Part shown: positions 11,242 through 24,150 of the stretch, piece after piece
Numbering within the stretch: position 1 is the first letter of the stretch
Layout of the letters: the number at the start of each line of letters is the position of its first letter
DNA from: a virus
Length of the DNA stretch: 24,994 bases
IMG/VR virus record: IMGVR_UViG_3300046689_000451
Location: 1 to 24,994 of that record
Strand: one strand, 5' to 3'
Position numbers and translations under genes: made by a program
The notes under the pieces: generated by a model
Seen by the model: the letters and a program-made list of their open reading frames with translations, nothing else
The model's database searches: none
Told to the model about the DNA's origin: nothing

Positions 11242-11646
11242 TTACGCAGGCCTCGCTTCGGCGTGCGGCCGTTCCTTCGTCGAGACTTGCGTCCAGAGTT
11301 CGACGCCGCGGTGGCGACCGATCGTGGAGGCGGCGACGATGTTGTAGACGCGGCCCTGATAGATCAGCCGGCGCGTTTTCGGGACGTCGAGGACCTCGGG
11401 GTCCATGTCGGCGCGGTAATTGATTTCCCACCGCACGTCGGACGCCGACGAGGTCTGCGCCGCCCGGTACCGTTCATACCCCTGCACGTCCTGGCGGGCG
11501 GCCGGCAGGTTCTGGACGAGCGGCAGCCACTGGCCATCGATCGGAAAGCCGGACGGCGCCGGCGTGTCGGGCTCGGGGCGTTGCTCGATCGTGACGAGGC
11601 GATCCCGCAGGCCTGCCGCTTGCCGATCCTGTTTGCGGAACGCCAC
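11242..11646 (-). CDS. Head closure protein (134 aa)
   Basis: It is predicted to close the head after packaging (SPP1 gp16-like head-tail adaptor). The N-terminus MAFRKQDRQAAGLRDRLVTI carries the GLRDRL-x-I pattern usual for this family. The middle is beta-rich and ends VYNIVAASTIGRHRGVELWT, which matches a barrel. The start is GTG at 11646, overlapping the connector TAG (TAGTG); a TTG at 11652 is also possible, but the ribosome binding site (GGAAGAGG) is 8 nt from GTG and only 2 nt from TTG, so GTG is preferred. Confidence 0.75.
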   Translation of the reverse strand: MAFRKQDRQAAGLRDRLVTIEQRPEPDTPAPSGFPIDGQWLPLVQNLPAARQDVQGYERYRAAQTSSASDVRWEINYRADMDPEVLDVPKTRRLIYQGRVYNIVAASTIGRHRGVELWTQVSTKERPHAEARPA

Positions 11647-12278
11647 TACCAATGCCTCTTCCAGAAATAGTCGAGGTTGAGCGTGTTGGCGACCTGCGCG
11701 TCGGCATTCGAGAGATCAGGATTTTTATAGAGCTCGCCGACGAAGGCCCCGATCCCGGTGCGGATCATCGCGGGCACATCCTCGGGCACCTCGTAGCCCG
11801 CGTCGAACTTGATGGCGACCGCATCCCCGCGCGTGGCCGTCGCGGGCCAGGTCGTGCCCACCGCCGGCTCGAGCGTCGGCCGCTTGCCGCCGATGAGGAC
11901 ATAGGCGGACTCGGGAAGCAGCTGTTCGACGTTGGCGGGGTCGTAGTACGTCACCGCCACCATCGCGCGCACCGGGCCGCGCTGCAGCTCCACGCGGCCC
12001 GCTGGAAAGCCGCTCATGACCTGGCGCCGCCGCTGCGGCCGCACGCTCTGATCGGTGTAGGCCTCGCAGACATCCGTCGCGGTCTCGATGTAGCCGGCGA
12101 TCAGGTCGTCCTCGTAGCCGCCGGTCAGGGCGCGGAGAATTTTCTCCGTGACGAATTTCACGCTGACCGCCTGCCAGGGCGGACTCGTCACGGCCGCGTC
12201 GCCCTCCGTCTGCCACCGGATGCCCTCATCCCACGGCCGCGGCCGCATCGTCGCGTACAGCTCGCCCGCGGGGATCAC
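11646..12278 (-). CDS. Head-tail connector protein (gp6-like, 210 aa)
   Basis: It would form the ring under the portal. The middle holds the family pattern: helical VKFVTEKILRALTGGYEDDL and IAGYIETATDVCEAYTDQSV, RRQVMSGFP, then LQRGPVRAMVAVTYYDP. It continues with beta strands to AVAIKFDAGYEVPEDVPAM and a final helix FVGELYKNPD. These are usual for connectors of the HK97 gp6 and phi-E125 gp8 groups. The start GTG at 12278 overlaps the upstream TGA as GTGA and has GAGG upstream; no ATG near that point gives a better fit. It follows the glycan cassette and resumes the normal connector order. Confidence 0.78.
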   Translation of the reverse strand: MIPAGELYATMRPRPWDEGIRWQTEGDAAVTSPPWQAVSVKFVTEKILRALTGGYEDDLIAGYIETATDVCEAYTDQSVRPQRRRQVMSGFPAGRVELQRGPVRAMVAVTYYDPANVEQLLPESAYVLIGGKRPTLEPAVGTTWPATATRGDAVAIKFDAGYEVPEDVPAMIRTGIGAFVGELYKNPDLSNADAQVANTLNLDYFWKRHW

Positions 12279-13006
12279 GCGAGGACCTCGTGGTACGGAA
12301 ACGACAACGTCCGCGGCGGGCCGGCGAGCGTGGCCACCAGCGCGCGCAGCGCGCCGTCCTGCGGTTCTTTCCGACCGTAGCGGCGCGTCGAGGCATCGCC
12401 GACGTGTTCGTGGCGGACGAGTTCGGCGCCGAGCAGCTGCAGGCGCGCGTGCCGCACCAGGCGCCGGCGATAGTAGCCGTCGGTCCCATAGAAGCCGGCC
12501 AGCCGTTCGTCGTAGCCGCCGATCGTCCAGAACATCGCGCGCGTCATGAGGAACGACGCGGAGTGCGGCGCAATCGCCTGGCCGGTGTGCTCGCGCCGGT
12601 GGAACGCGTACACCACGGTCGGATCGTGGACGCCGGTCAGGATCGCCTCGAGCGTGCGCTCGGGCACGACGTGATCGATATCGGTCAGGAGGATCCAGCC
12701 GTCGGCCGCGTGGTGCGCGCCGATGTTGCGCGCGGCCAGCCAGTTCCAGCGGACGTCGGTCTCGATGCGGAAGAGGCGCGTGGCCGACGGCAGGTTCGCG
12801 GGCTTGACGCACGGCACCGGCGAGCCGTCATCGACGATCACGATCGAAAGTGCGGCCGCGAGAGCCGCCGCATAACTGCGCCACACGGTGGCCTGAGTAT
12901 CGAGCCACGTATGGTTTTCGTAAAACGAAACGACCAGCGTGAGCGGTGTCAGCGTGCGGCCGTGTGGCACGTCGACGGTCGGAACGTTGCGACACCAGAG
13001 CGCCAT
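12275..13006 (-). CDS. GT2-family glycosyltransferase (243 aa)
   Basis: The protein is a GT-A fold inverting transferase. Visible landmarks are a beta-strand start LTLVVSFYENHTW (22-34), VIVDDGS (56-62), the metal-binding DID at 109-111 in WILLTDIDHV, and the acceptor-side FWTIGGYDERLAGFYGTDGY (159-178), the classic GT2 GG-Y-DE...G motif. There is no membrane segment. It transfers an activated sugar, but neither donor nor acceptor can be read. ATG at 13006 overlaps the previous TGA (TGATG). It is the last of the cassette before the connector genes. The long upstream open stretch to 13234 is a shadow and not part of the gene. Confidence 0.85.
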   Translation of the reverse strand: MALWCRNVPTVDVPHGRTLTPLTLVVSFYENHTWLDTQATVWRSYAAALAAALSIVIVDDGSPVPCVKPANLPSATRLFRIETDVRWNWLAARNIGAHHAADGWILLTDIDHVVPERTLEAILTGVHDPTVVYAFHRREHTGQAIAPHSASFLMTRAMFWTIGGYDERLAGFYGTDGYYRRRLVRHARLQLLGAELVRHEHVGDASTRRYGRKEPQDGALRALVATLAGPPRTLSFPYHEVLA

Positions 13007-13662
13007 CACCGCGTGCCCATCCAGAGATCGCGAAACCACGGCCACTGGCCGGCCGCGATGTGATTTTTCGGTTTCTTCGCGAGCACCACGCGCGCCGCCG
13101 GCGGCACGATCCCGGTCGCCGCAAATGCGGAGAGCCGCGGGCACCAGGCAGGCGGCAACGTCGCCGCTTCCGGGTGTCGTTCGGCGAGCCAGTCCTGATC
13201 GCCCCACAGCCGATCGGCGACGCCCAGATGCCACTCGATCCAGAGATCGGGATAGACGCCGCCGTCGAACACCATCACGGAACTGTTGAACCGCTTGAGC
13301 ACGCGGTGCGGCAGCCGCGGTTGAAACGTCGAGCCGTCGTCGTGGAGCGTCGCGAACGCCGCCGGGAATTCAAGGATCGGCGCGAGGTCGCCGACGACGA
13401 GCACGTCGAGATCGAGATAGAGCACGCGGTCGGTGAGCCCGTGGCCGGGATTGAAGAGTTCGAGTTTCGACCACCAGCCGGCCCGCGCGAGCGGCGTGAT
13501 GGCAATGGGCGCGACGCCGATCGGCACCTCGCGCGGCCGATCGGTGAAGCAGACGAACCGATGCGGCTGCGGCAGCCGGCGGCGCACCATCGCGGCGAGC
13601 CGCTCGACGTACTCGACGCCATACGGGACCTGGCCACGCACCCACACGCAGGCGACCGTCAT
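13006..13662 (-). CDS. GT8-like glycosyltransferase (218 aa)
   Basis: It has the layout of short GT-A glycosyltransferases found in phages: RFVCFTD (35-41), GWWSKLELF (62-70), LYLDLDVLVVG (81-91) with a DLD metal motif (84-86), FNSSVMVFDGG (125-135), GDQDW (154-158) and a C-terminal KPKNH (197-201). The pattern follows the GT8/GT32-like group using nucleotide sugars. It begins at an ATGA overlap with the methyltransferase stop. Substrate is unknown. Together with its neighbours it could build a short glycan. Confidence 0.8.
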   Translation of the reverse strand: MTVACVWVRGQVPYGVEYVERLAAMVRRRLPQPHRFVCFTDRPREVPIGVAPIAITPLARAGWWSKLELFNPGHGLTDRVLYLDLDVLVVGDLAPILEFPAAFATLHDDGSTFQPRLPHRVLKRFNSSVMVFDGGVYPDLWIEWHLGVADRLWGDQDWLAERHPEAATLPPAWCPRLSAFAATGIVPPAARVVLAKKPKNHIAAGQWPWFRDLWMGTR

Positions 13663-14378
13663 CGGCGGATGCCGATCCCATAGATCCGTTCGGGCGCGGC
13701 CTCGAGGAACTGAAAGTCATACGCCTCCCGCAGCACGCTGAGCGCCGATGCGACCGGCCACAGCTGCACGTCGTCGAAGAGCACGACGTCACCGGGGTGC
13801 TGCCGATCGGCGATCAGAAAGCCTTCGCGCTTCACGACGTCGTGCGTGTGCTTGCCGTCGACGAAGGCGAACCGAATCCGCCCGGCGGTGCGCGCGAGCC
13901 AGTCGAGGCCGCTGTCATGCCGGAACTCGATCGTCTCGGCCTCCGGCCAGGGCGCGAGGATCTGGGCGAGCGTCTGCGGGCCGGCGCATTCGGCGACGGT
14001 GTTGCGCAGGACGGCGGCCGCCGGATCGATCACGTCGACCGAGACCACGCGGCCCTCGACGTGCAGATCGCGGCGGGCCCATTCCAGGCAGAGCGCCGAG
14101 AAGCCTTTCGCGGTGCCGATGTCGAGCAGTGTGACCGGGCCGCCCGCCGGCGTCCGCACGAGGAGCGCCGCGGCCAGCGCATAGATCACGCGGCCGTGCT
14201 GCCAGTTGGGCGGATGCACTTTGACGGGGCAGGCGAGCACGCGCGCGGCGGCCTCGAGCTTGGCCCGCGGCAGCTGGTACCCGTGCGCGGCCTCGAACGC
14301 GTCGATGGTCGGATAGTCGCGGTCCCGCTCGCGCTCCCAGATCGCGCGATAGAGATCGGCCGACGGGATCGTCTTCAT
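13659..14378 (-). CDS. Class I SAM-dependent methyltransferase (239 aa)
   Basis: The SAM-binding loop LLDIGTAKGFSALCLEW (84-100), the next acidic strand VVSVDVID (111-118), AFVDGKHTHDVVKRE (171-185) and LFDDVQ (200-205) identify a Rossmann methyltransferase of the Methyltransf_24-like type, often linked to O-methylation of sugars. The VDG-x-H step is typical for that group. ATG at 14378 follows the FkbM stop with no gap (TGAATG). It could cap or modify glycans laid down by adjacent transferases. The acceptor is not deducible. Confidence 0.8.
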   Translation of the reverse strand: MKTIPSADLYRAIWERERDRDYPTIDAFEAAHGYQLPRAKLEAAARVLACPVKVHPPNWQHGRVIYALAAALLVRTPAGGPVTLLDIGTAKGFSALCLEWARRDLHVEGRVVSVDVIDPAAAVLRNTVAECAGPQTLAQILAPWPEAETIEFRHDSGLDWLARTAGRIRFAFVDGKHTHDVVKREGFLIADRQHPGDVVLFDDVQLWPVASALSVLREAYDFQFLEAAPERIYGIGIRR

Positions 14379-15020
14379 TCAGACGCACTCCACCGGCAGG
14401 AACACGTCGTCGGAGTGCAGGCGGTCGGCCCACGAATACCCGCGCGCGAGAATCCACGCGCGGATCGCCGCGGCCTCGAGCCCGTAGTACCCGCAGTTCT
14501 TGTTGATCTCCACCGCGAGCACCGGCCGGCAGCGCTCGAGCGTCTCGACCGCGCCCTGCAGCGCCCACCACTCGTACCCTTCCAGATCGAGTTGGATCAG
14601 ATCGCAACGCGGCAGCGCGAGGTCATCGATGCGGAGCGTCGGCACCGTGCCGGCGCCGGCGACGTGCGTGATGCCTTCGTGCGCGTTCGGTTTCCCGTCG
14701 CGCCGGGTTTGATCCATCCGCACCAGCTGCCGCTGCAGGCCCAGCGCCGCTTGATACCGGATGATGTTCGGCTCGGGCGCATTGGCGACGAGCAACGGGA
14801 AGAGTTTCGGCGCCGGCTCGAACGTATAGACCGTCGGAAAGAAGTGGGCGAGTCGTTTCGGAAACAGGCCGAGGTTGCCGCCCGCTTGAATGACGGCGCG
14901 CCGGATCGGCACGCGCGCGACGATCGCATCGAGACTCGCGAGATCGCGATGGCCCCAGCGGAGCGCCTCGTGGCTGCCGAGAAACTTTCGCCAGTTCCAG
15001 CCGTAGGTCGGCCCCGTCAT
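14379..15020 (-). CDS. FkbM-family methyltransferase (213 aa)
   Basis: Features of the FkbM family are present: AVIQAGGNLGLF (42-53) as SAM motif I, YTFEPAPKLF (65-74), LRIDDLALPRCDLIQLDLEG (129-148) with the family LxLD-x-EG step, and EINKN (171-175). These enzymes methylate sugar or polyketide hydroxyls. The ATG at 15020 is chosen because it overlaps the preceding TGA (ATGA); the longer frame reads into that gene. The substrate is unknown. FkbM genes beside glycosyltransferases are common in polysaccharide loci and occur in some phages. Confidence 0.86.
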   Translation of the reverse strand: MTGPTYGWNWRKFLGSHEALRWGHRDLASLDAIVARVPIRRAVIQAGGNLGLFPKRLAHFFPTVYTFEPAPKLFPLLVANAPEPNIIRYQAALGLQRQLVRMDQTRRDGKPNAHEGITHVAGAGTVPTLRIDDLALPRCDLIQLDLEGYEWWALQGAVETLERCRPVLAVEINKNCGYYGLEAAAIRAWILARGYSWADRLHSDDVFLPVECV

Positions 15021-15739
15021 ACCGGCAACCCGTAATAGTGCTCGCGCACCCACGGAATCGCCTGCGCGCGCGCGTCCCAGGGATCGAGCTTGCCGTGCCA
15101 GAACACGATGCGCGCGTTGGCGGGCAGGACGTTGCCGGCCGGCTCGAGGTGCACGCGGTGGCTATAGACGCCGTCGGCCGTCGACCAGGTCGCTTCGTGG
15201 GGCCCGAGGATGTAGCTGATCCAACCCTGATCGCTGCCGCGCTTGCCGGCGCGCGCCGCCAGCTGGGGCGATCGCTGGGGATCGAAGGCCGTCCACACCT
15301 GATCGCGCGTGCCGGTGCGCAACAGCCAGAACGAGCCGTTGTACCACTGGCGCGGAAAATCCGCCTGGCCCCAGATGACGAAGTCCTCGTCGCGATCGAC
15401 GAGCGGCGCGATGTCGGCGACGATCACCGTGTCGAGATCGATCGACACGACCCGTTCCCCGAAGATCGCGCGCGCGCCGGGCGCGAACAGTTTCAGCCGG
15501 CGATAGCAGCTGGGATTGTGGCGGCCGCTGGGATTGGGCAGGTCCGCGTGATCGGGCCAGAGCGGCATCGTCCAGATGCCGGGATCGATCGCCGCCGGCT
15601 CATCGGTGATGCAGAGGAACCGATGCGGCCGCTGATAGTGGCGCGCGATCATGTCGCGCAGCGCCGTCACCGTCTCGGGCGCGAACGTGGACCGATAGCC
15701 TGGCGTCGGCCGCCACCGCCAGCAGACGAACGTCAGCAT
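15017..15739 (-). CDS. GT8-like glycosyltransferase (240 aa)
   Basis: It parallels the second GT8-like protein at 13006-13662 but is clearly distinct. Landmarks are RFLCITDEP (40-48), RRLKLFAP (80-87), VVSIDLDTVIVADI (97-110) with DLD (101-103), YNGSFWLLRTG (133-143), GSDQGWIS (168-175) and a final VFWHGKLDPWD (212-222). The F-H-G-x-x-P end is usual for such GT-A enzymes. The ATG at 15739 lies 7 nt inside the upstream gene (ATGCTGA). No secretion signal is visible, so action is in the cytoplasm. Donor and acceptor unknown. Confidence 0.8.
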   Translation of the reverse strand: MLTFVCWRWRPTPGYRSTFAPETVTALRDMIARHYQRPHRFLCITDEPAAIDPGIWTMPLWPDHADLPNPSGRHNPSCYRRLKLFAPGARAIFGERVVSIDLDTVIVADIAPLVDRDEDFVIWGQADFPRQWYNGSFWLLRTGTRDQVWTAFDPQRSPQLAARAGKRGSDQGWISYILGPHEATWSTADGVYSHRVHLEPAGNVLPANARIVFWHGKLDPWDARAQAIPWVREHYYGLPV

Positions 15740-16401
15740 GGCACCGAGGTTTCGACCCGATTGTTCGCGGGTAGCGCCGTCTCGAGCGGCGTGCGCGGGA
15801 AGCATTCGAGCGCCGTCGTGCGCGTGCAGTTGACGATCGCGACGCCGGCGTCGGCCAGCGGCGCGACGAGCGATCGGAAGCGCGGCAGGAAGAGATGCAA
15901 TTCCGGCGGCGGCCCTTTCGGATGCTCGCCGAAGAAGTGCGATCGGCCGTCCGCGGTCTGCAGGTCGTAGCCCAGCAGCACGATCCGCGCGGCGCCGTAG
16001 TGCACGGCGAGATTGATCGCCTGATACCCGCTGTTCAAGCCGGAGCGGAGGCCCGTCGGATGCCGCTCGAGCCCGCGGCTGCCGGTGTTCCGCAGGCGCT
16101 GGACATCGGGATAGCGGTCGGCGCGTGCGTGCCACCGGGGATCGGCGAGCGACCACTTCGCGCCGGCAAAGCCGGGGACGCCGGCGTGCCAGTGCCACCA
16201 GCGCGCGTCGGCCGCGTACAGCACGTCCGCCCACGGGGCGAGCCGGTACGCGTCGTTGATCGCAATCACGCGGGCTTTGCCGCGACAGTAGGCGACGTCG
16301 GCGGCGGTGAGGCTCGGGCCGGTCGCGAGACAGACGACCGTCGCGCCCGGCCAGGCGCGGGGCACACTAGGCGGGTCGACCGGGTTTACCTTCGCGCCCA
16401 T
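15733..16401 (-). CDS. MptE/DUF115-like ('norphogenetic') phage protein (222 aa)
   Basis: The sequence shows VVCLATGPSLTAADVAYCRG (22-41), RVIAINDAYRLAPWADVLYA (44-63), the aromatic ARWWHWHAG (66-74), SGLNSGYQAINLAVHYGAAR (120-139), LLGYDLQ (142-148), GRSHFFGEHP (152-161) and NCTRTTALECFP (191-202). These form a recognisable phage family often auto-annotated 'norphogenetic protein', related to the Rossmann-like MptE/DUF115 group, which includes proteins from glycan loci. Catalytic function is unproven. I take ATG 16401; a longer frame to 16455 is possible but overlaps more. It shares 35 nt with the preceding collagen-like gene. Confidence 0.72.
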   Translation of the reverse strand: MGAKVNPVDPPSVPRAWPGATVVCLATGPSLTAADVAYCRGKARVIAINDAYRLAPWADVLYAADARWWHWHAGVPGFAGAKWSLADPRWHARADRYPDVQRLRNTGSRGLERHPTGLRSGLNSGYQAINLAVHYGAARIVLLGYDLQTADGRSHFFGEHPKGPPPELHLFLPRFRSLVAPLADAGVAIVNCTRTTALECFPRTPLETALPANNRVETSVPC

Positions 16402-16894
16402 CTCGGCCCGCTTTGACGGCCAGCTGCCAGGCATGCGACGCGGCCGGGGTGACACCCGGCCGCTCGGTGGTCGCCTCCTTCGCGATCCACAGATGGCCGC
16501 CCCACGTCACCGCATCGCCCTTCACGTACGATCGGCCGTCCTCGTAGACGCCGCGATAGAGCGGCGCCGCAATCGTGAACGTGGCCACCTTGACGAGCTC
16601 GCCGCGGATGAACTTCACCGTCACGGTGCGCTCGCCATCGAACTCCGCGCTGAAATCGTCCAGGTTGAAACCGTCGCGTCCATCGCGGCCGCTCGGGCCG
16701 GCAACGCCGGCCGGGCCCGGTACCGGCGCGCGATCCTCCATCGCCTTCACGCGCGCGACCAGCGCGATCAGCGTTCCGCCCAGTTCCTCGAGCGCGCGCA
16801 GGCGCAGATCCATCGGGGTGATGGCCGCGGCGATTTCCTCGACGAACACCGGCGCCAGGCCGAGCGTCAATTGCTCGAGTTGTTCGGGCGTCAT
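16367..16894 (-). CDS. Collagen-like / carbohydrate-binding module protein (175 aa)
   Basis: The N-terminal 55 residues are helical. A short collagen-like stretch follows, GPAGVAGPSGRDGRDG (60-75), then a beta-rich linker, then a chitin-binding-like (CBM5/12-type) module (113-160): YRGVYEDGRSYVKGDAVTWG (113-132) and HLWIAKE with WQLAVK at the end. It closes with another Gly-rich repeat (KAGRDGREGKPGRP). This combination is known in phage and prophage proteins that may sit on the virion surface. The start overlaps the portal TGA (ATGA), so it is coupled to a structural gene. It may be a decoration or fibre-like protein; the sugar ligand is unknown. Confidence 0.75.
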   Translation of the reverse strand: MTPEQLEQLTLGLAPVFVEEIAAAITPMDLRLRALEELGGTLIALVARVKAMEDRAPVPGPAGVAGPSGRDGRDGFNLDDFSAEFDGERTVTVKFIRGELVKVATFTIAAPLYRGVYEDGRSYVKGDAVTWGGHLWIAKEATTERPGVTPAASHAWQLAVKAGRDGREGKPGRPA

Positions 16895-18282
16895 GCGGCG
16901 GCCTTTCTGACGACGACCATTGCGCGGCGCATCGACTGGAGGACGGCGGCGGTGTCGATCACCTCCGCGGCCGCGGCGCGTGGGAGCGCCGGCGCCGGCG
17001 CGGGCGGCGCGGCGGCCGACGTCGAGAATGGATTCGGTTGGGCGTCGCGCTTGGCGAGCGCCTCGAGGCTGAAGTTCTGCTGCTGCAGGTACGGCGACGC
17101 GCCGCCGGGCACCGGGCCGAGATTGAGGAACCGCCGGCGCGCTTCGTTGGGCGACATGCCGCCGCCGCCGATCGCGTCGGCCGCCGCTTTGACGAGCGAG
17201 GGCGTGTTCATCTTGAGCAGTTCGTCGAGGTCGCATTCGGTGCCGAGGTCCACGGCCAAGCCGATGCCTTCATCGAGCAGGAGCTCGACGCACTCAATCG
17301 GATTCTGCAGGCACTGCGAGTAGTACCCGATGTTCAGCGACTCGATGTCCGATCCGGCGGGCACCGGGCCCACGCCGATCTTGAACGCCGGCACCTTGAA
17401 GGCGCTGCAGACGTTTTCGGCCGACCACTTCAGCTGTTCGATCAGCTGCGAATCGACGGCGTTGAAACTCAGCTTCTCGAACTTCAGCCCGTTGCCGAGC
17501 ACGGCGACCTTGCCCTGGTTGTCGCCGGAATAGTCGGCGTCCCACCGCTCCTGAATCTGCCGCCGATCGGCTTCGTCGATCATGCCGGGCGCCGTGAGGA
17601 GGCCGCCCGGTTGCGATCCGTTGCCGAAAAAGCGCGCGGAATTGTTCTGGATGCGCAGGCCTTGCGTGGCCGCGATCCCGCACGCGGTGATCGGGGAGAC
17701 GCCGCAGAGCGGGTGATAGAGCGGGACCATCACGTCGTGAATGATTTCGCTGGCGGGCACGGTGACGCCGCTCGGAATTTGCGCGAGCGTGTCGCCCGAG
17801 AGCGCGTAGTAGACCGATCCGTCGGGCGCGACCAGCGGCCGCACCAGCTGCGGGTCGAGGACATAAAGCGCGACGACGACGCCGCGAAGGTCGCGGGCCT
17901 TGAGCATGTAGGCGTTGCCGTGGATGTACTTCGAGGTCACCCACTGCTCGATGAACTTGATCCGATTCTGGTAGCGGTTGGGTTTACGCAGCAGCGGCGA
18001 ATAGGCGGGGTTCTGGGTTTCGTTCCAGACGCCGTCGGCGTCGCGCTGCATCAGTTTGATGCGGAGCTTCGCGATGTCGGAGGCGATCAGCGTGACGCAC
18101 GCATAGACCGCGGTGTAGGTGAGGACATCCTCGGCGCGCAGTTCGATGTTCTTCTGCCAGGCGCCGGTGAAGCCTTCGCGGACGACCGGCCACCAGCCGC
18201 CGCGACTGGACGGCGTGGCGAGCACCGGCGGCGTCGCCTGCTTGCGTCGGATCGCGGGGACGTCGAAGCCGAAGATCTGCAT
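16891..18282 (-). CDS. Portal protein, HK97 type (463 aa)
   Basis: The portal forms the dodecameric channel through which DNA enters. Diagnostic parts are TAVYACVTLIASDIAKLRIK, NPAYSPLLRKPNRYQNRIKF, the WVTSKYIHGNAYMLKARDL stretch, DVMVPLYHPLCGVSPITACG, ARFFGNGSQPGGLLTAPGMI and VLGNGLKFEKLSFNAVDSQL. These match the Phage_portal family of HK97. The C-terminus is Ala/Pro-rich. GGGAGAGG 11 nt before the ATG is a good ribosome binding site. It lies downstream of the major capsid gene, unlike the usual portal-protease-capsid order, and is separated from it by a 98-nt gap with a strong hairpin. Confidence 0.92.
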   Translation of the reverse strand: MQIFGFDVPAIRRKQATPPVLATPSSRGGWWPVVREGFTGAWQKNIELRAEDVLTYTAVYACVTLIASDIAKLRIKLMQRDADGVWNETQNPAYSPLLRKPNRYQNRIKFIEQWVTSKYIHGNAYMLKARDLRGVVVALYVLDPQLVRPLVAPDGSVYYALSGDTLAQIPSGVTVPASEIIHDVMVPLYHPLCGVSPITACGIAATQGLRIQNNSARFFGNGSQPGGLLTAPGMIDEADRRQIQERWDADYSGDNQGKVAVLGNGLKFEKLSFNAVDSQLIEQLKWSAENVCSAFKVPAFKIGVGPVPAGSDIESLNIGYYSQCLQNPIECVELLLDEGIGLAVDLGTECDLDELLKMNTPSLVKAAADAIGGGGMSPNEARRRFLNLGPVPGGASPYLQQQNFSLEALAKRDAQPNPFSTSAAAPPAPAPALPRAAAAEVIDTAAVLQSMRRAMVVVRKAAA

Positions 18283-18380: not shown

Positions 18381-19790
18381 TTAGGCTGGGCTCCCGACGG
18401 GGCCCCAGGTGACATCGTCCATGTACGACACAGCTTCCGGGCGCCGACGCGCCCAGTTGATGAACCGTTCGGCGCGCAGCGCGATGCTGTTCGTCTGGAA
18501 CATCGACACCGACTGACTCGGCGTCGGCACGCCCGACGTCGCCGCCGGCGCGTCGTCCATCTCCAGCGAGGCCTCGCGGCTCATGTCGACGGCCACTTGC
18601 CCGTCGTCGGCCAGGAAGATCTCGTTGGCGTTGAGCGCGATGACGATGTTGCCCGCGCCGCCGGTGGTGAACGCCGCATACTGCGACGCGATCACCGGAA
18701 TGCCGAGCAGGTTGCCGCCCGTCATCGACATGCCGGGGAATTCTTTCTGCCCCAGCGCGTTGACTTGGATCGAGAGCGCGAGCGCGAGGCTCGCGGGCAT
18801 GATCACGACGATCGCCGACGGATCCTGATTGTTCGCGATGAACTGTGCGATCAGCTTGGCGAAATCCATGCGGATGTCGTCGGCCGTCGATCCGCTTGAC
18901 GCGATCGGAACGAGGCCGTGGGTGATCGACGCCGGCGACACGTTGGCGACTTCCGCCTTCGCCGGATCGATGAAGTCGATGTCCATCCGCTCGATGATCG
19001 CGCGCGCGAGTTCGTCGCGGACGAGCGCCTCGGCCGAGGGCGACGAGAACCGGACGATCTCTTCGGTCAGGACCGCGATGTTCGCGACCTTCGCCCAGCC
19101 CAGCTGCGTCGGCGCCACGTTGAACCGGGTCAGCGGCTTCGCCTTGCCCTGCCCGACCCAGTAGCCCGATCCCTTTGTGGTCTGCCCGAGGATGCGGACG
19201 TTGAACGGCACGCGGCGCAGCTGCGGAATTCCGCCCTGCCCGAACTGGCCGATGATCGTCTTGGGCCGCAGGAACTCCACGAACTCGCCCGACAGGTTCG
19301 TCGGATCGACGAGCGCGCCCAGCCAGCCCGGATCAACCGACGTCGCCGCCGGTACCGCTGCCTTGTGGAGGTACTCGTGGATGCGCGGGAAATCGGGATA
19401 GCGCACCTTCGCGAGCTCGACGGGATTCATCCCCTCGAGGCGCGCGTGCATCTTCACCATGACCATGCGGGCGAATTCGATGCCCGCCGGCAGGTTCGAC
19501 TTCACGCTGATGACGGTCGTCGCCGGCGTGCGCGCCTCGGCGCCCGTCTTCAAGTCGACCGCCTTGACCGCCTTCGCGGCCGCGATGTTCGACGCTTCCT
19601 GAATGCGGAGGCGCTTCAGGTGCGCGTCGATGGCCTCGATCTCGGCGGTCAGCGCGTCGTGCTGTTCGGCGGCTTTCGCATCGAGCGTCACGCCGGTCTC
19701 GGCGGCTTTCGTCATGAGCGCATTGCGCTCGGCGTCCTTCGCGGCACGCGTCGCCTCGAAGGCCGCGATCTGTTCTTGGATCGTTTTCAT
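18381..19790 (-). CDS. Major capsid protein, HK97 fold (469 aa)
   Basis: The main shell protein. Residues 1 to about 85 form a coiled-coil-rich scaffold-like (delta) domain (IQEQIAAFEATRAAKDAERN, EIEAIDAHLKRLRIQEA) expected to be removed by the protease. The body has features usual for HK97-type shells: FVEFLRPKTIIGQFG, RVPFNVRILGQ, YWVGQGKAKPLTRFNVAPTQ, KVANIAVLTEEIVRFSSPSA, RAIIERMDIDFIDPA, MPASLALALS and GGNLLGIPVIASQYA, ending with AERFINWARRRPEAVSYMDD. ATG at 19790 overlaps the protease TGA (ATGA). No fused protease. It is expected to be the most abundant virion protein. Confidence 0.93.
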   Translation of the reverse strand: MKTIQEQIAAFEATRAAKDAERNALMTKAAETGVTLDAKAAEQHDALTAEIEAIDAHLKRLRIQEASNIAAAKAVKAVDLKTGAEARTPATTVISVKSNLPAGIEFARMVMVKMHARLEGMNPVELAKVRYPDFPRIHEYLHKAAVPAATSVDPGWLGALVDPTNLSGEFVEFLRPKTIIGQFGQGGIPQLRRVPFNVRILGQTTKGSGYWVGQGKAKPLTRFNVAPTQLGWAKVANIAVLTEEIVRFSSPSAEALVRDELARAIIERMDIDFIDPAKAEVANVSPASITHGLVPIASSGSTADDIRMDFAKLIAQFIANNQDPSAIVVIMPASLALALSIQVNALGQKEFPGMSMTGGNLLGIPVIASQYAAFTTGGAGNIVIALNANEIFLADDGQVAVDMSREASLEMDDAPAATSGVPTPSQSVSMFQTNSIALRAERFINWARRRPEAVSYMDDVTWGPVGSPA

Positions 19791-20365
19791 GGCAGGCCAA
19801 TCGCTTTCACTACGGGGAGTGCCGACCCGCCGGCGGTTGGACGTGCAGGCGCTGGGGGATCAGACGTGCCGGACGCGGCGCGATCCGCTGCAGCGAGAGA
19901 TTTGATGCTGATGGTCGTCGCGGCGTTCATGGGAATAGTGACGCAGGACGTTTCCAGCCATTCCCACGATCCGAATTTGAAGAGCAGGTCGCCGGCGGCG
20001 TCCTTGATGACCTCGGGCGATTCGAGCGGCGTCCAGCCGATCGAGAAGCCCCGCACCAGTTTGTGCTTGATGGATTGCCAGGCCTCATCGAGGCGGGTCT
20101 TGAGCGGGCCGGGCTCGTCGATGTTTTTGATCGACGCCCGAATCATGATCCCTTCGCGCAGGACCTGCGCCTCGGTGACCTCGCCGATCGGCTGATCCTG
20201 CCGGTGCTGCCAGAGGAGCGGCATCGGCAGTTTGAACTTCGCGCCGGCGGCGACCATGATGTGCCCGCCGCGATCCGGCTCGGGCGACGTGGCGAGGCCT
20301 TCGATAGTCCGCGTCTCCTCGTTGACCGACTTAATGTCCCAGACGCTGTAGGCGCGCGCGTGCAT
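19787..20365 (-). CDS. Prohead protease, HK97/U35 family (192 aa)
   Basis: It cleaves the capsid scaffold domain during maturation. The opening is WDIKSVNEETRTIEGLATSP with a typical beta-strand and D-RGGH step (31-35). The catalytic His54 sits in LLWQHRQDQPIG, and Ser108 in LVRGFSIGW. Glu138 in ETSCVTIPMN matches the conserved ExSxVxxPxN region. After about residue 155 the sequence is low-complexity Ala/Pro and probably flexible. Its stop overlaps the capsid start. Length and motifs agree well with the family. Confidence 0.92.
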   Translation of the reverse strand: MHARAYSVWDIKSVNEETRTIEGLATSPEPDRGGHIMVAAGAKFKLPMPLLWQHRQDQPIGEVTEAQVLREGIMIRASIKNIDEPGPLKTRLDEAWQSIKHKLVRGFSIGWTPLESPEVIKDAAGDLLFKFGSWEWLETSCVTIPMNAATTISIKSLAAADRAASGTSDPPAPARPTAGGSALPVVKAIGLP

Positions 20366-22428: not shown

Positions 22429-22891
22429 TCAGATACCGATTGATGTTCGAGTGCGGGCCGCCCGGCGCTTTGATCCCTTTCACGCGCGGGCGCGAACTGG
22501 GCGTCAGCCCGAGTTCGGCATCGACCTTCGCGAGCAGGAGAAAGGTGCGGTTGGCCATGATGCGCGCCGGGTTGCCCATCGGGTATTTGTTTTTCCCGAC
22601 CGACACGACGTGCGCGTGTTTCGCCGCGTCGGCCAGCTGCGACCGCCACGTCGACCAAAAGTGACAATGCGAAATCGCGAACACGCGGTCGGCCGCGGTG
22701 ATTTGGCCGGTGTCGATCGCCGGCACGATCGTCCGCACCCATTCGGCCTGGGCTTCCGCGTCCTCGGCGAGTTCCTCCGGCCAGGCGGCCGGCAGCGCGG
22801 GCGGTAGCGGTTCGTCGCGGTTGATGGGGCGGTGGCCGGGATTGCCGCGCGCCAGGCGAATCACCGAGGGCGTCGGTTTCCGGCCTCTCAC
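22394..22891 (-). CDS. terS: Small terminase subunit, P27 family (165 aa)
   Basis: The N-terminus MRGRKPTPSVIRLARGNPGH followed by RPINRDEP is the hallmark of the P27-type small subunit, which recognises DNA for packaging. A helical middle (AEAQAEWVRTIVPAIDTGQI, then ADRVFAISHCHF and QLADAAKH) and a RIMANRTFLLLAKVDAELGL helix near the end fit it well. The start is GTG in a GTGA overlap with the methyltransferase stop. It partners with the large subunit directly downstream. Confidence 0.93.
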   Translation of the reverse strand: MRGRKPTPSVIRLARGNPGHRPINRDEPLPPALPAAWPEELAEDAEAQAEWVRTIVPAIDTGQITAADRVFAISHCHFWSTWRSQLADAAKHAHVVSVGKNKYPMGNPARIMANRTFLLLAKVDAELGLTPSSRPRVKGIKAPGGPHSNINRYLNVLPGGKVSSR

Positions 22892-24150
22892 AGCGGTGTG
22901 GCCTTCTCGCCGGTGAACGCCTCCCAGCGATCCACCGCGACTTGCACATAGGTCGGATCGATATCGATCGCCAGGCAGGACCGCCCGGTTTGTTCGCAGG
23001 CAATCACCGTCGTGCCGCTGCCGACGAACGGGTCATACACCGCGTGGCCGGGCGAGGAATTGTTCTCGAGCGGGCGGCGCATGGCTTCGACGGGCTTCTG
23101 GGTCGAGTGGCCGAGCCCGCTGTCATCGCGTGCGTTGATCCGCCACACCGTCGATTGCGCGCGGTCGCCGGTCCAGTGGCCCTGGCCTTTCACGACGTAC
23201 CAACACGGTTCGTGCTGCCAGTGATAGTGGCCGCGCGAGAGCGCGAACCGATCCTTCACCCAAATGATCTGCGACCGGATCTCGAAGCCGGCCGCCTCGA
23301 GACTCTCCTGCACCTCACGCGCGTGCAGCCCACCGTGCCAGATGTAGCCGACGGTGCCGGGGAAGAGCGCCCACGCGGCGCGCCAGTCGGATCGGTTGTC
23401 GCCGGTGACGGCGCCCATCTTGCCCTTGTTCTTGTTGACGCCGGCGCGCGCGCGCCAGGCCGGATCGTAGGAGACGCCATAGGGCGGGTCGGTGACCATC
23501 AGGTGCGGCACGACGCCGTCGAGCAGCCGCGCGACATCGGTGCCGTCCGTGCAATCGCCGCAGAGCAGGCGATGGCGGCCGAGCGCGAACAGGTCGCCGC
23601 GCGCGATCGTCGTCGGCCGCGCCTCGGGCACCTCATCGGGATCGGTCAGGCCGGTGCCGATCGTCGTTTGCACGATCGCGGCGAGCTCGTCCTCGCTGAA
23701 CCACGGCGTCAGATCCAGCCCGGCCGCCTGGTCGGCCGCCAGCTGATCCGCATTCCATTCGGCGAGTTCCGCGGTGCGGTTGTCGTACATCGCGAGCGAT
23801 CGTTTCGCCGCAGCCGACAGGCCGCGGCGCCGCACGGCAATGATCTCGTCGCCGGCGGCGTCGATCACGCGCACCTTCGTGATCCCCGCGGCCGCGGCCG
23901 CGGCGGTGACGCCGTTGCCGGCGAGCACCACATCGTCCTCGTCGATGACGATCGACCGAGCCGCGCCGACATCTTTCAGCGCCGCGACAATCATTTCGAC
24001 GTTGCGCGGATTGTGCGTGCGGCGATTATTCGGATCGACCACGAGATCCGCGATCCGCAAACTCTCTTTGCTCGCCGATCGGCCAGCCGCGATCCGCAAA
24101 CTCTCTTTGCTCGCCGGCCGCCGCGATCCGCCGCGATCCTTCGTCGTCAT
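22888..24150 (-). CDS. ParB-domain / DNA methyltransferase fusion (420 aa)
   Basis: Residues about 28-110 are a ParB/Srx-like nuclease-type domain (SLRIADLVVDPNNRRTHNPR, IVAALKDVGAARSIVID, AGNG). A linker leads to the methyltransferase: LCGDCTD (196-202), VTDPPYG (219-225) with the DPPY catalytic motif, HSTQKPVE (348-355) and DPFVGSGTTVIAC (373-385). The order DPPY before F-x-G-x-G marks the beta class of amino-group DNA methyltransferases (N6-adenine or N4-cytosine), usually without a partner restriction enzyme in phages. It probably protects phage DNA or marks it for packaging. The N-terminus carries a 13-residue duplication. It starts after GAGGGGGG and a likely terminator. Confidence 0.9.
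   Translation of the reverse strand: MTTKDRGGSRRPASKESLRIAAGRSASKESLRIADLVVDPNNRRTHNPRNVEMIVAALKDVGAARSIVIDEDDVVLAGNGVTAAAAAAGITKVRVIDAAGDEIIAVRRRGLSAAAKRSLAMYDNRTAELAEWNADQLAADQAAGLDLTPWFSEDELAAIVQTTIGTGLTDPDEVPEARPTTIARGDLFALGRHRLLCGDCTDGTDVARLLDGVVPHLMVTDPPYGVSYDPAWRARAGVNKNKGKMGAVTGDNRSDWRAAWALFPGTVGYIWHGGLHAREVQESLEAAGFEIRSQIIWVKDRFALSRGHYHWQHEPCWYVVKGQGHWTGDRAQSTVWRINARDDSGLGHSTQKPVEAMRRPLENNSSPGHAVYDPFVGSGTTVIACEQTGRSCLAIDIDPTYVQVAVDRWEAFTGEKATPL
24048..24116 (-). repeat. 30-bp direct repeat, 39-bp period, in methyltransferase N-terminus
   Basis: A 30-bp sequence occurs at 24048-24077 and, unchanged, at 24087-24116. The 39-bp period is exactly 13 codons, so the reading frame is kept and ASKESLRIA appears twice (residues 13-21 and 26-34). 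The two copies are identical at the DNA level, which suggests a recent duplication at the start of the ParB-like domain. A further pair of 10-bp CCGCGATCCG-like words sits next to it. Confidence 0.9.

Follow-up and report, generated by a model that had tools for sequence, protein, structure and literature searches.

A modular cassette of sugar- and methyltransferase genes inside a phage head operon, probably building a variable methylated glycan on the virion

The locus and its genes

The 24,994-bp virus record IMGVR_UViG_3300046689_000451, which comes from a soil-type phage, was analysed over its whole length and is hereafter called the window, carries on its minus strand a late operon whose genes follow one another in the order terminase large subunit (TerL), protease, HK97-type capsid protein, portal, seven further genes, connector, neck, tail tube and tape measure. 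The subject of this article is the block of seven, located at 12275-16894 between portal and connector, which encodes a collagen-like protein, a DUF115/MptE-like protein, three glycosyltransferases (GTs) and two methyltransferases (MTs). A preliminary description had noticed seven coupled open reading frames (ORFs) at this place, and their coordinates, number and junctions are borne out by the sequence. The genes, with their anchors and the major capsid protein, are listed below in the direction of transcription, with the matches on which each assignment is based.

18381..19790, minus strand: HK97-fold major capsid protein (MCP), candidate acceptor (phrog_617, 6e-102; TIGR01554 above cut-off)
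16891..18282, minus strand: HK97-type portal protein, upstream anchor (phrog_2271, 8.7e-123; TIGR01537, 222.8 bits vs a cut-off of 112)
16367..16894, minus strand: Coll, with an N-terminal helix, short G-X-Y runs and a beta domain resembling CBM5/12, assigned to the portal module (phrog_1289, 5e-25)
15733..16401, minus strand: D115, single-domain DUF115/MptE/Cst-like protein, the constant gene of the cassette, start codon uncertain (phrog_4603, 3e-47)
15017..15739, minus strand: GT8a, GT8-like glycosyltransferase with invariant DLD and DQ (phrog_1962, 1e-14)
14379..15020, minus strand: FkbM-family methyltransferase (Pfam Methyltransf_21, 9.6e-15; TIGR01444, 58.7 bits vs a cut-off of 37.7)
13659..14378, minus strand: MT24, class I methyltransferase of the Methyltransf_24 family (Pfam 5.6e-11, above cut-off)
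13006..13662, minus strand: GT8b, second GT8-like glycosyltransferase, with a DLD motif (phrog_1962, 3e-19)
12275..13006, minus strand: GT2-family glycosyltransferase (Pfam 4.5e-9, above cut-off)
11646..12278, minus strand: head-tail connector, downstream anchor (phrog_442, 9e-18)

As read from the sequence, portal and Coll are joined by ATGA, Coll and D115 overlap by 35 nt provided that D115 starts at 16401, and the subsequent junctions are ATGCTGA (D115/GT8a), ATGA (GT8a/FkbM), TGAATG (FkbM/MT24), ATGA (MT24/GT8b), TGATG (GT8b/GT2) and GTGA (GT2/connector). The GC content at third codon positions (GC3) is 0.85-0.90 for D115 and the five enzyme genes and 0.83 for Coll, the structural genes having 0.81-0.91, and the codon usage of the cassette is near that of the structural set, FkbM being the farthest from it; both measures uphold the early statement that block and neighbours have a common base composition. 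That the block is long established also finds support, the cassette proteins of the window being 49-69% identical to those of relatives with the same gene order, on a par with portal and MCP, with the connector lower.

Enzyme families and catalytic motifs

Only FkbM, GT2 and Methyltransf_24 exceed the Pfam cut-offs in the window; the GT8-like, MptE/DUF115, collagen and CBM5/12 matches lie below them, and these assignments are backed by PHROG matches, profile searches and structure models. FkbM scores 55.6 against a cut-off of 22.7, and its S-adenosylmethionine-binding and catalytic motifs are present, G47, G51, E68, D145 and E147 being invariant in the alignment of relatives. GT2 reaches 36.9 bits (cut-off 23.3) with D59, D84 and D111 invariant in 17 aligned sequences, in which the aspartates of DDGS and of a TDxDH stretch are conserved. 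GT8b has a Pfam GT8 score of 16.9 vs a cut-off of 24.3 and GT8a has no Pfam match; the DxD metal/nucleotide-sugar motif of GT8 is nevertheless recognizable, D101-L102-D103 as well as D170-Q171 being invariant in 18 aligned sequences. A profile search with GT8a finds glycogenin, a protein-glucosylating GT8, at 5e-6, while the GT2 profile finds in the PDB, among many others, chondroitin synthase (9e-10) and GmaR (1.4e-6), a flagellin glycosyltransferase; as far as protein glycosylation is concerned, the glycogenin and GmaR matches, obtained at the level of sequence profiles, are hints only.

D115 consists of 222 aa forming a single domain that was modelled with high confidence (pLDDT, predicted local distance difference test, 94.8). 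Aligned with VIA-align, its best solved match is Maf from Magnetospirillum (5mu5; Z 15.4, root-mean-square deviation 3.8, 188 residues), followed by the sialyltransferases Cst-I/II (Cst-I 2p2v, Z 12.9) and by MptE (11.6), unrelated rows scoring ~5; plain Foldseek returned no match for D115 in the PDB under E 0.001. The model thus has the Maf/Cst (GT42-like) catalytic-domain fold, in one domain rather than in the three-domain architecture of Maf. Structure prediction, suggested at the outset as a check, accordingly gave a Maf/Cst-like D115, and a Coll resembling fibre and chitin-binding proteins. Maf is known to place nonulosonic acids on Ser/Thr of flagellin (PMC11339370), and Maf-dependent flagellin glycosylation is cytoplasmic and precedes export (PMC4065374). 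By analogy with its modelled fold, D115 plausibly attaches the first sugar, an opening step that would come naturally to a Maf-like enzyme of one domain produced alongside the capsid proteins.

An optional block with exchangeable contents

When viral contigs were scanned for D115, 80 loci were obtained; they are close relatives by construction, their genes were called by a simple script and classes were spread from cluster representatives. The search for conserved gene order, also proposed earlier, succeeded in that several contigs keep the order of the window with one extra gene each, namely an additional methyltransferase gene (~185 aa) between MT24 and GT8b in L003-L006 and a gene between D115 and GT8a in L002. 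Because the same genes recur in order on other contigs, the block is not a product of chance. Across the D115 loci the constant part is portal-Coll-D115, the stretch from D115 to the connector being variable. In the 44 distinct D115 loci having structural anchors on both sides this slot has a median size of 3.6 kb (range 0-6.9 kb) and holds altogether 222 genes: 67 GT, 50 MT, seven further copies of D115, four radical SAM, 19 weak GT/MT calls and 75 unassigned. A GT is present in 32/44 of these loci, an MT in 36/44 and both in 27/44, the GT types found in relatives being GT2, GT8-like, GT-D, GT9, TOD1-like and GT-B. The initial remark that a complete cassette in this location stands out was therefore an understatement: the site is a hot spot at which relatives have exchanged one set of genes for another. 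Radical SAM enzymes, of which one carries a B12-binding domain, occur in the slots of L032, L039 and L009 and suggest unusual sugar or peptide chemistry.

As a control, loci were retrieved by the portal alone, without the D115 bait. Four of them (L105, L113, L125, L128), whose portals are 62-64% identical to that of the window, are precise empty sites with the order portal-Coll-connector-HTJ-neck, and six (L110, L112, L114, L118, L122, L126) are minimal sites in which D115 and GT8a stand alone. The full set is also found, in L121 with the order portal-Coll-D115-GT8a-FkbM-MT24-GT8b-GT2-connector plus one extra methyltransferase gene and in L158 with the order of the window plus one extra gene after D115. 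The occurrence of empty, minimal and full versions among portal-retrieved loci indicates that the cassette is facultative and its position constant.

Retrieval with GT8a or GT2 alone leads to the same surroundings by another route. In 13/14 of the loci so obtained the enzyme genes adjoin TerL (L179, L180, L182, L183), connector or neck genes (L184, L186, L189, L191, L192), portals of other families (L181, L185) or, in L187, the gene of an unrelated capsid, the exception being L188. Phage GT genes thus lie within virion-structural modules, at the portal-connector site in most loci and beside TerL, portal or MCP elsewhere. The chief reason to suppose a virion target is that the enzymes accompany head genes from one head architecture to another.

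Coll and the question of the acceptor

The preliminary description had counted Coll as a member of the cassette and named it, beside the capsid, as an example of an acceptor of the glycan; the relatives speak against Coll as a cassette member and as the preferred acceptor. Coll is kept in the four empty-site phages, where it has 24-26 G-X-Y triplets; conversely, Coll is missing beside the cassettes of L023, L026, L073, L077, L078, L081 and Tetraselmis viridis virus S20 (L096). The Coll gene, being found also without the cassette, belongs to the portal module and not to the enzyme cassette, and an obligatory partnership is rejected, each occurring without the other. That the glycan is built on Coll, which would be a special case of virion glycosylation and not exclusive of it, seems doubtful to us, even though Coll immediately precedes D115 in most loci, in many of which it contains 20-94 triplets, and collagen-like proteins are glycosylated in other systems; the Coll of the window has only 10 triplets, and its Pfam collagen score of 15.1 is below the cut-off of 27.2. 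The structures that the Coll model (pLDDT 87) matches best are the tail fibre of cyanophage A-1(L), with Z 8.0, and chitin-binding domains, with Z 7-7.7 over 45-48 residues. The name "portal protein" that PHROG gives to phrog_1289 was not accepted at face value, the relatives in PAJU2 and SP-016 being separate ORFs after the portal. In L023, L026, L032 and L076 the Coll gene is replaced by long Ala/Glu-rich, apparently coiled-coil C-terminal extensions of portals of 667-969 aa, and D115 still follows.

As an acceptor, Coll is no more likely than the capsid or some other head protein. The C-terminal tail of the MCP was considered as glycan acceptor and rejected for want of an overall difference by cassette status, being kept as a lead only. 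This tail contains the motif WG(S/P)(V/I)GSP in the window and in L003, L004, L009, L057, L061, L121 and L158; the motif was not seen in the empty-site phages. The C-terminus of the tail-tube protein displays no visible difference by cassette status. Protease (19787-20365) and MCP (18381-19790) are separate, ATGA-coupled ORFs in the window, most relatives having a single fused ORF of ~620-670 aa. Just upstream of the terminase gene, at 22888-24150, a ParB-like domain is fused to a DNA methyltransferase.

What the cassette is likely to do

The explanation that accounts best for these data, to which we assign a probability of about 0.6, is that of a modular cassette, expressed late, that builds a variable methylated glycan on a protein of the virion head, with D115 acting first. 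In this scheme the cassette has become inserted between the portal/Coll genes and the connector gene; D115 would start the glycan in the cytoplasm by linking a sugar to Ser/Thr of a head protein, GT8a, GT8b and GT2 would lengthen it with nucleotide sugars of the host as donors, and FkbM and MT24 would cap it by O-methylation, while swapping of the downstream enzymes between related phages would give each lineage a different surface glycan. The original proposal of a methylated glycan on a virion protein is thus retained in part: a multi-enzyme sugar/methyl cassette does lie inside the head operon and a virion target is its best reading, without a preference for Coll. From genes and models we infer the virion target, the acceptor, the initiating role of D115, the supply of donors by the host and a protective or adhesive role of the product.

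Several data weigh against this explanation. D115 is below the Pfam cut-off (PF01973, MptE-like: 21.4 bits vs 34.6, E 2.4e-4) and its sequence profile gives only insignificant matches in the PDB (E 0.7 or worse), so that the fold carries the argument. Neither NeuB nor a CMP-sugar synthetase gene was found in 15 related records, and the donors would therefore be those of the host or of another kind. About a third of the slot genes of relatives have no assigned function, and the MCP C-terminal tails of phages with and without cassette do not differ significantly in length (p 0.94) or Ser/Thr count (p 0.13). Finally, the D115 relative of PAJU2, ORF010 (L082 7780-8349), has no recognised GT cassette beside it and is annotated "structural protein", an annotation not traced to data.

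This last case, together with that of D3, where the D115 relative is a head-operon gene and no GT cassette was recognised, would suit the idea that D115 and some of its neighbours are virion or assembly proteins retaining an enzyme fold, so that the block would be structural and not enzymatic. We consider this improbable, because GT8, GT2 and FkbM retain their catalytic motifs throughout the aligned relatives and because a slot whose contents are interchangeable between enzyme families, and absent in empty-site phages, fits an assembly role poorly. Somewhat less improbable, albeit still unlikely, is that the cassette modifies a host surface polysaccharide (lipopolysaccharide or capsule), late in infection or in lysogens, and thereby blocks superinfection or the re-adsorption of progeny to debris. 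GT8, GT2 and FkbM are indeed families common in envelope polysaccharide synthesis, and phage GT8 genes have been interpreted as host-surface modifiers by the authors of a pelagiphage study (PMC7029224). Against such a target stand the products themselves, in which no membrane segment stands out (over 19 residues the highest Kyte-Doolittle value is 1.63, compared with 2.06 for the soluble MCP), the lack of a flippase- or GtrA-like partner among the cassette genes of the window, the Maf/Cst-like fold of D115 and the head, packaging or connector genes that adjoin the enzymes even when these are retrieved without a structural bait.

Least probable is a hypermodification of the phage DNA with methylated sugars. 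DNA-glycosylating phage GTs do exist (Pyle et al. 2024, as cited in PMC12619734). Some cassettes, moreover, adjoin TerL. The usual source of hydroxymethylated bases is the thymidylate-synthase family, and no gene of this type was detected in any of the 15 related records (29-54 kb, maybe incomplete) by a search that was positive in nine control genomes, a result that renders DNA hypermodification unlikely; furthermore, the fold of D115 resembles protein- and glycan-modifying transferases.

Glycosylation of a virion head protein thus remains the preferred explanation. A broader generalization, attractive but with the odds somewhat against it, would be that of a widespread exchangeable "glyco-island" occupying one place of the head operon in many siphophages, in which a Maf-like D115 would add the first sugar and GT, MT and radical SAM genes would vary a methylated surface glycan, as a counterpart of O-antigen variation. 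If true, phages would make variable glycoproteins of their own by multi-step pathways organised like bacterial O-antigen loci, at the place where virion parts are made; this would account for many "sialyltransferase", GT and FkbM genes scattered in phage annotations, supply small enzymes as candidates for glycosylating proteins in the cytoplasm and offer a testable reason for surface differences between related phages.

Comparison with known systems

A close parallel among deposited genomes is the Caudoviricetes genome of Tetraselmis viridis virus S20 (NC_020840), which carries D115, GT, MT, FkbM-like and GT8a genes (GT8a 51% identical) between the protease/capsid block and head closure, and which differs from the window in gene order, in some enzymes and in having no collagen-like gene; no study of its cassette was found in the openly licensed literature. 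S20 is recorded as an algal virus, yet has a tailed-phage head/tail operon, and its host entry is probably wrong. D115 is followed by or grouped with other genes elsewhere, as in CcrColossus, where D115, a sugar transferase, an MT and a GT9 come after the tail genes, and in phiNP, whose small terminase gene is immediately preceded by D115 and a relative of GT8a. A genome scan for hosts gave six relatives only, all in metagenome-assembled genomes.

What is known is that phage GTs glycosylate virions in mycobacteriophages and that a methylated capsid glycan exists in chloroviruses. An exchangeable multi-enzyme cassette that occupies one site of the head operon and has a Maf-like gene as its constant part was not found described among openly licensed papers, a literature search on DUF115, phage and glycosyltransferase having likewise found no paper there.

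With the Maf proteins of Magnetospirillum, Aeromonas and Clostridium, D115 shares the modelled fold and, as its proposed role, the cytoplasmic O-glycosylation of a self-assembling protein; it differs from them in having no flanking Maf domains and in being below the Pfam cut-off, its role being a prediction. In mycobacteriophages, GTs encoded by the phage glycosylate subunits of the capsid and the tail tube (Che8 gp110, Corndog gp38, Myrna; Freeman et al. 2023, as cited in PMC12363180 and PMC12619734), as is proposed here for the window from its genes; whereas the GTs named for the capsid in those citing accounts are single, the window combines several GT and MT genes with a constant gene of Maf/Cst type, all at one set place between portal and connector, of which empty and swapped versions exist. 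The product envisaged has its nearest likeness in chlorovirus PBCV-1, whose major capsid protein bears a methylated glycan made by viral GTs together with a methyltransferase (PMC7019647); the virus is eukaryotic and, unlike the phages considered here, uses separate GT genes and one multidomain protein, A064R, with two rhamnosyltransferase domains and a sugar methyltransferase, rather than a swappable block in a head operon.

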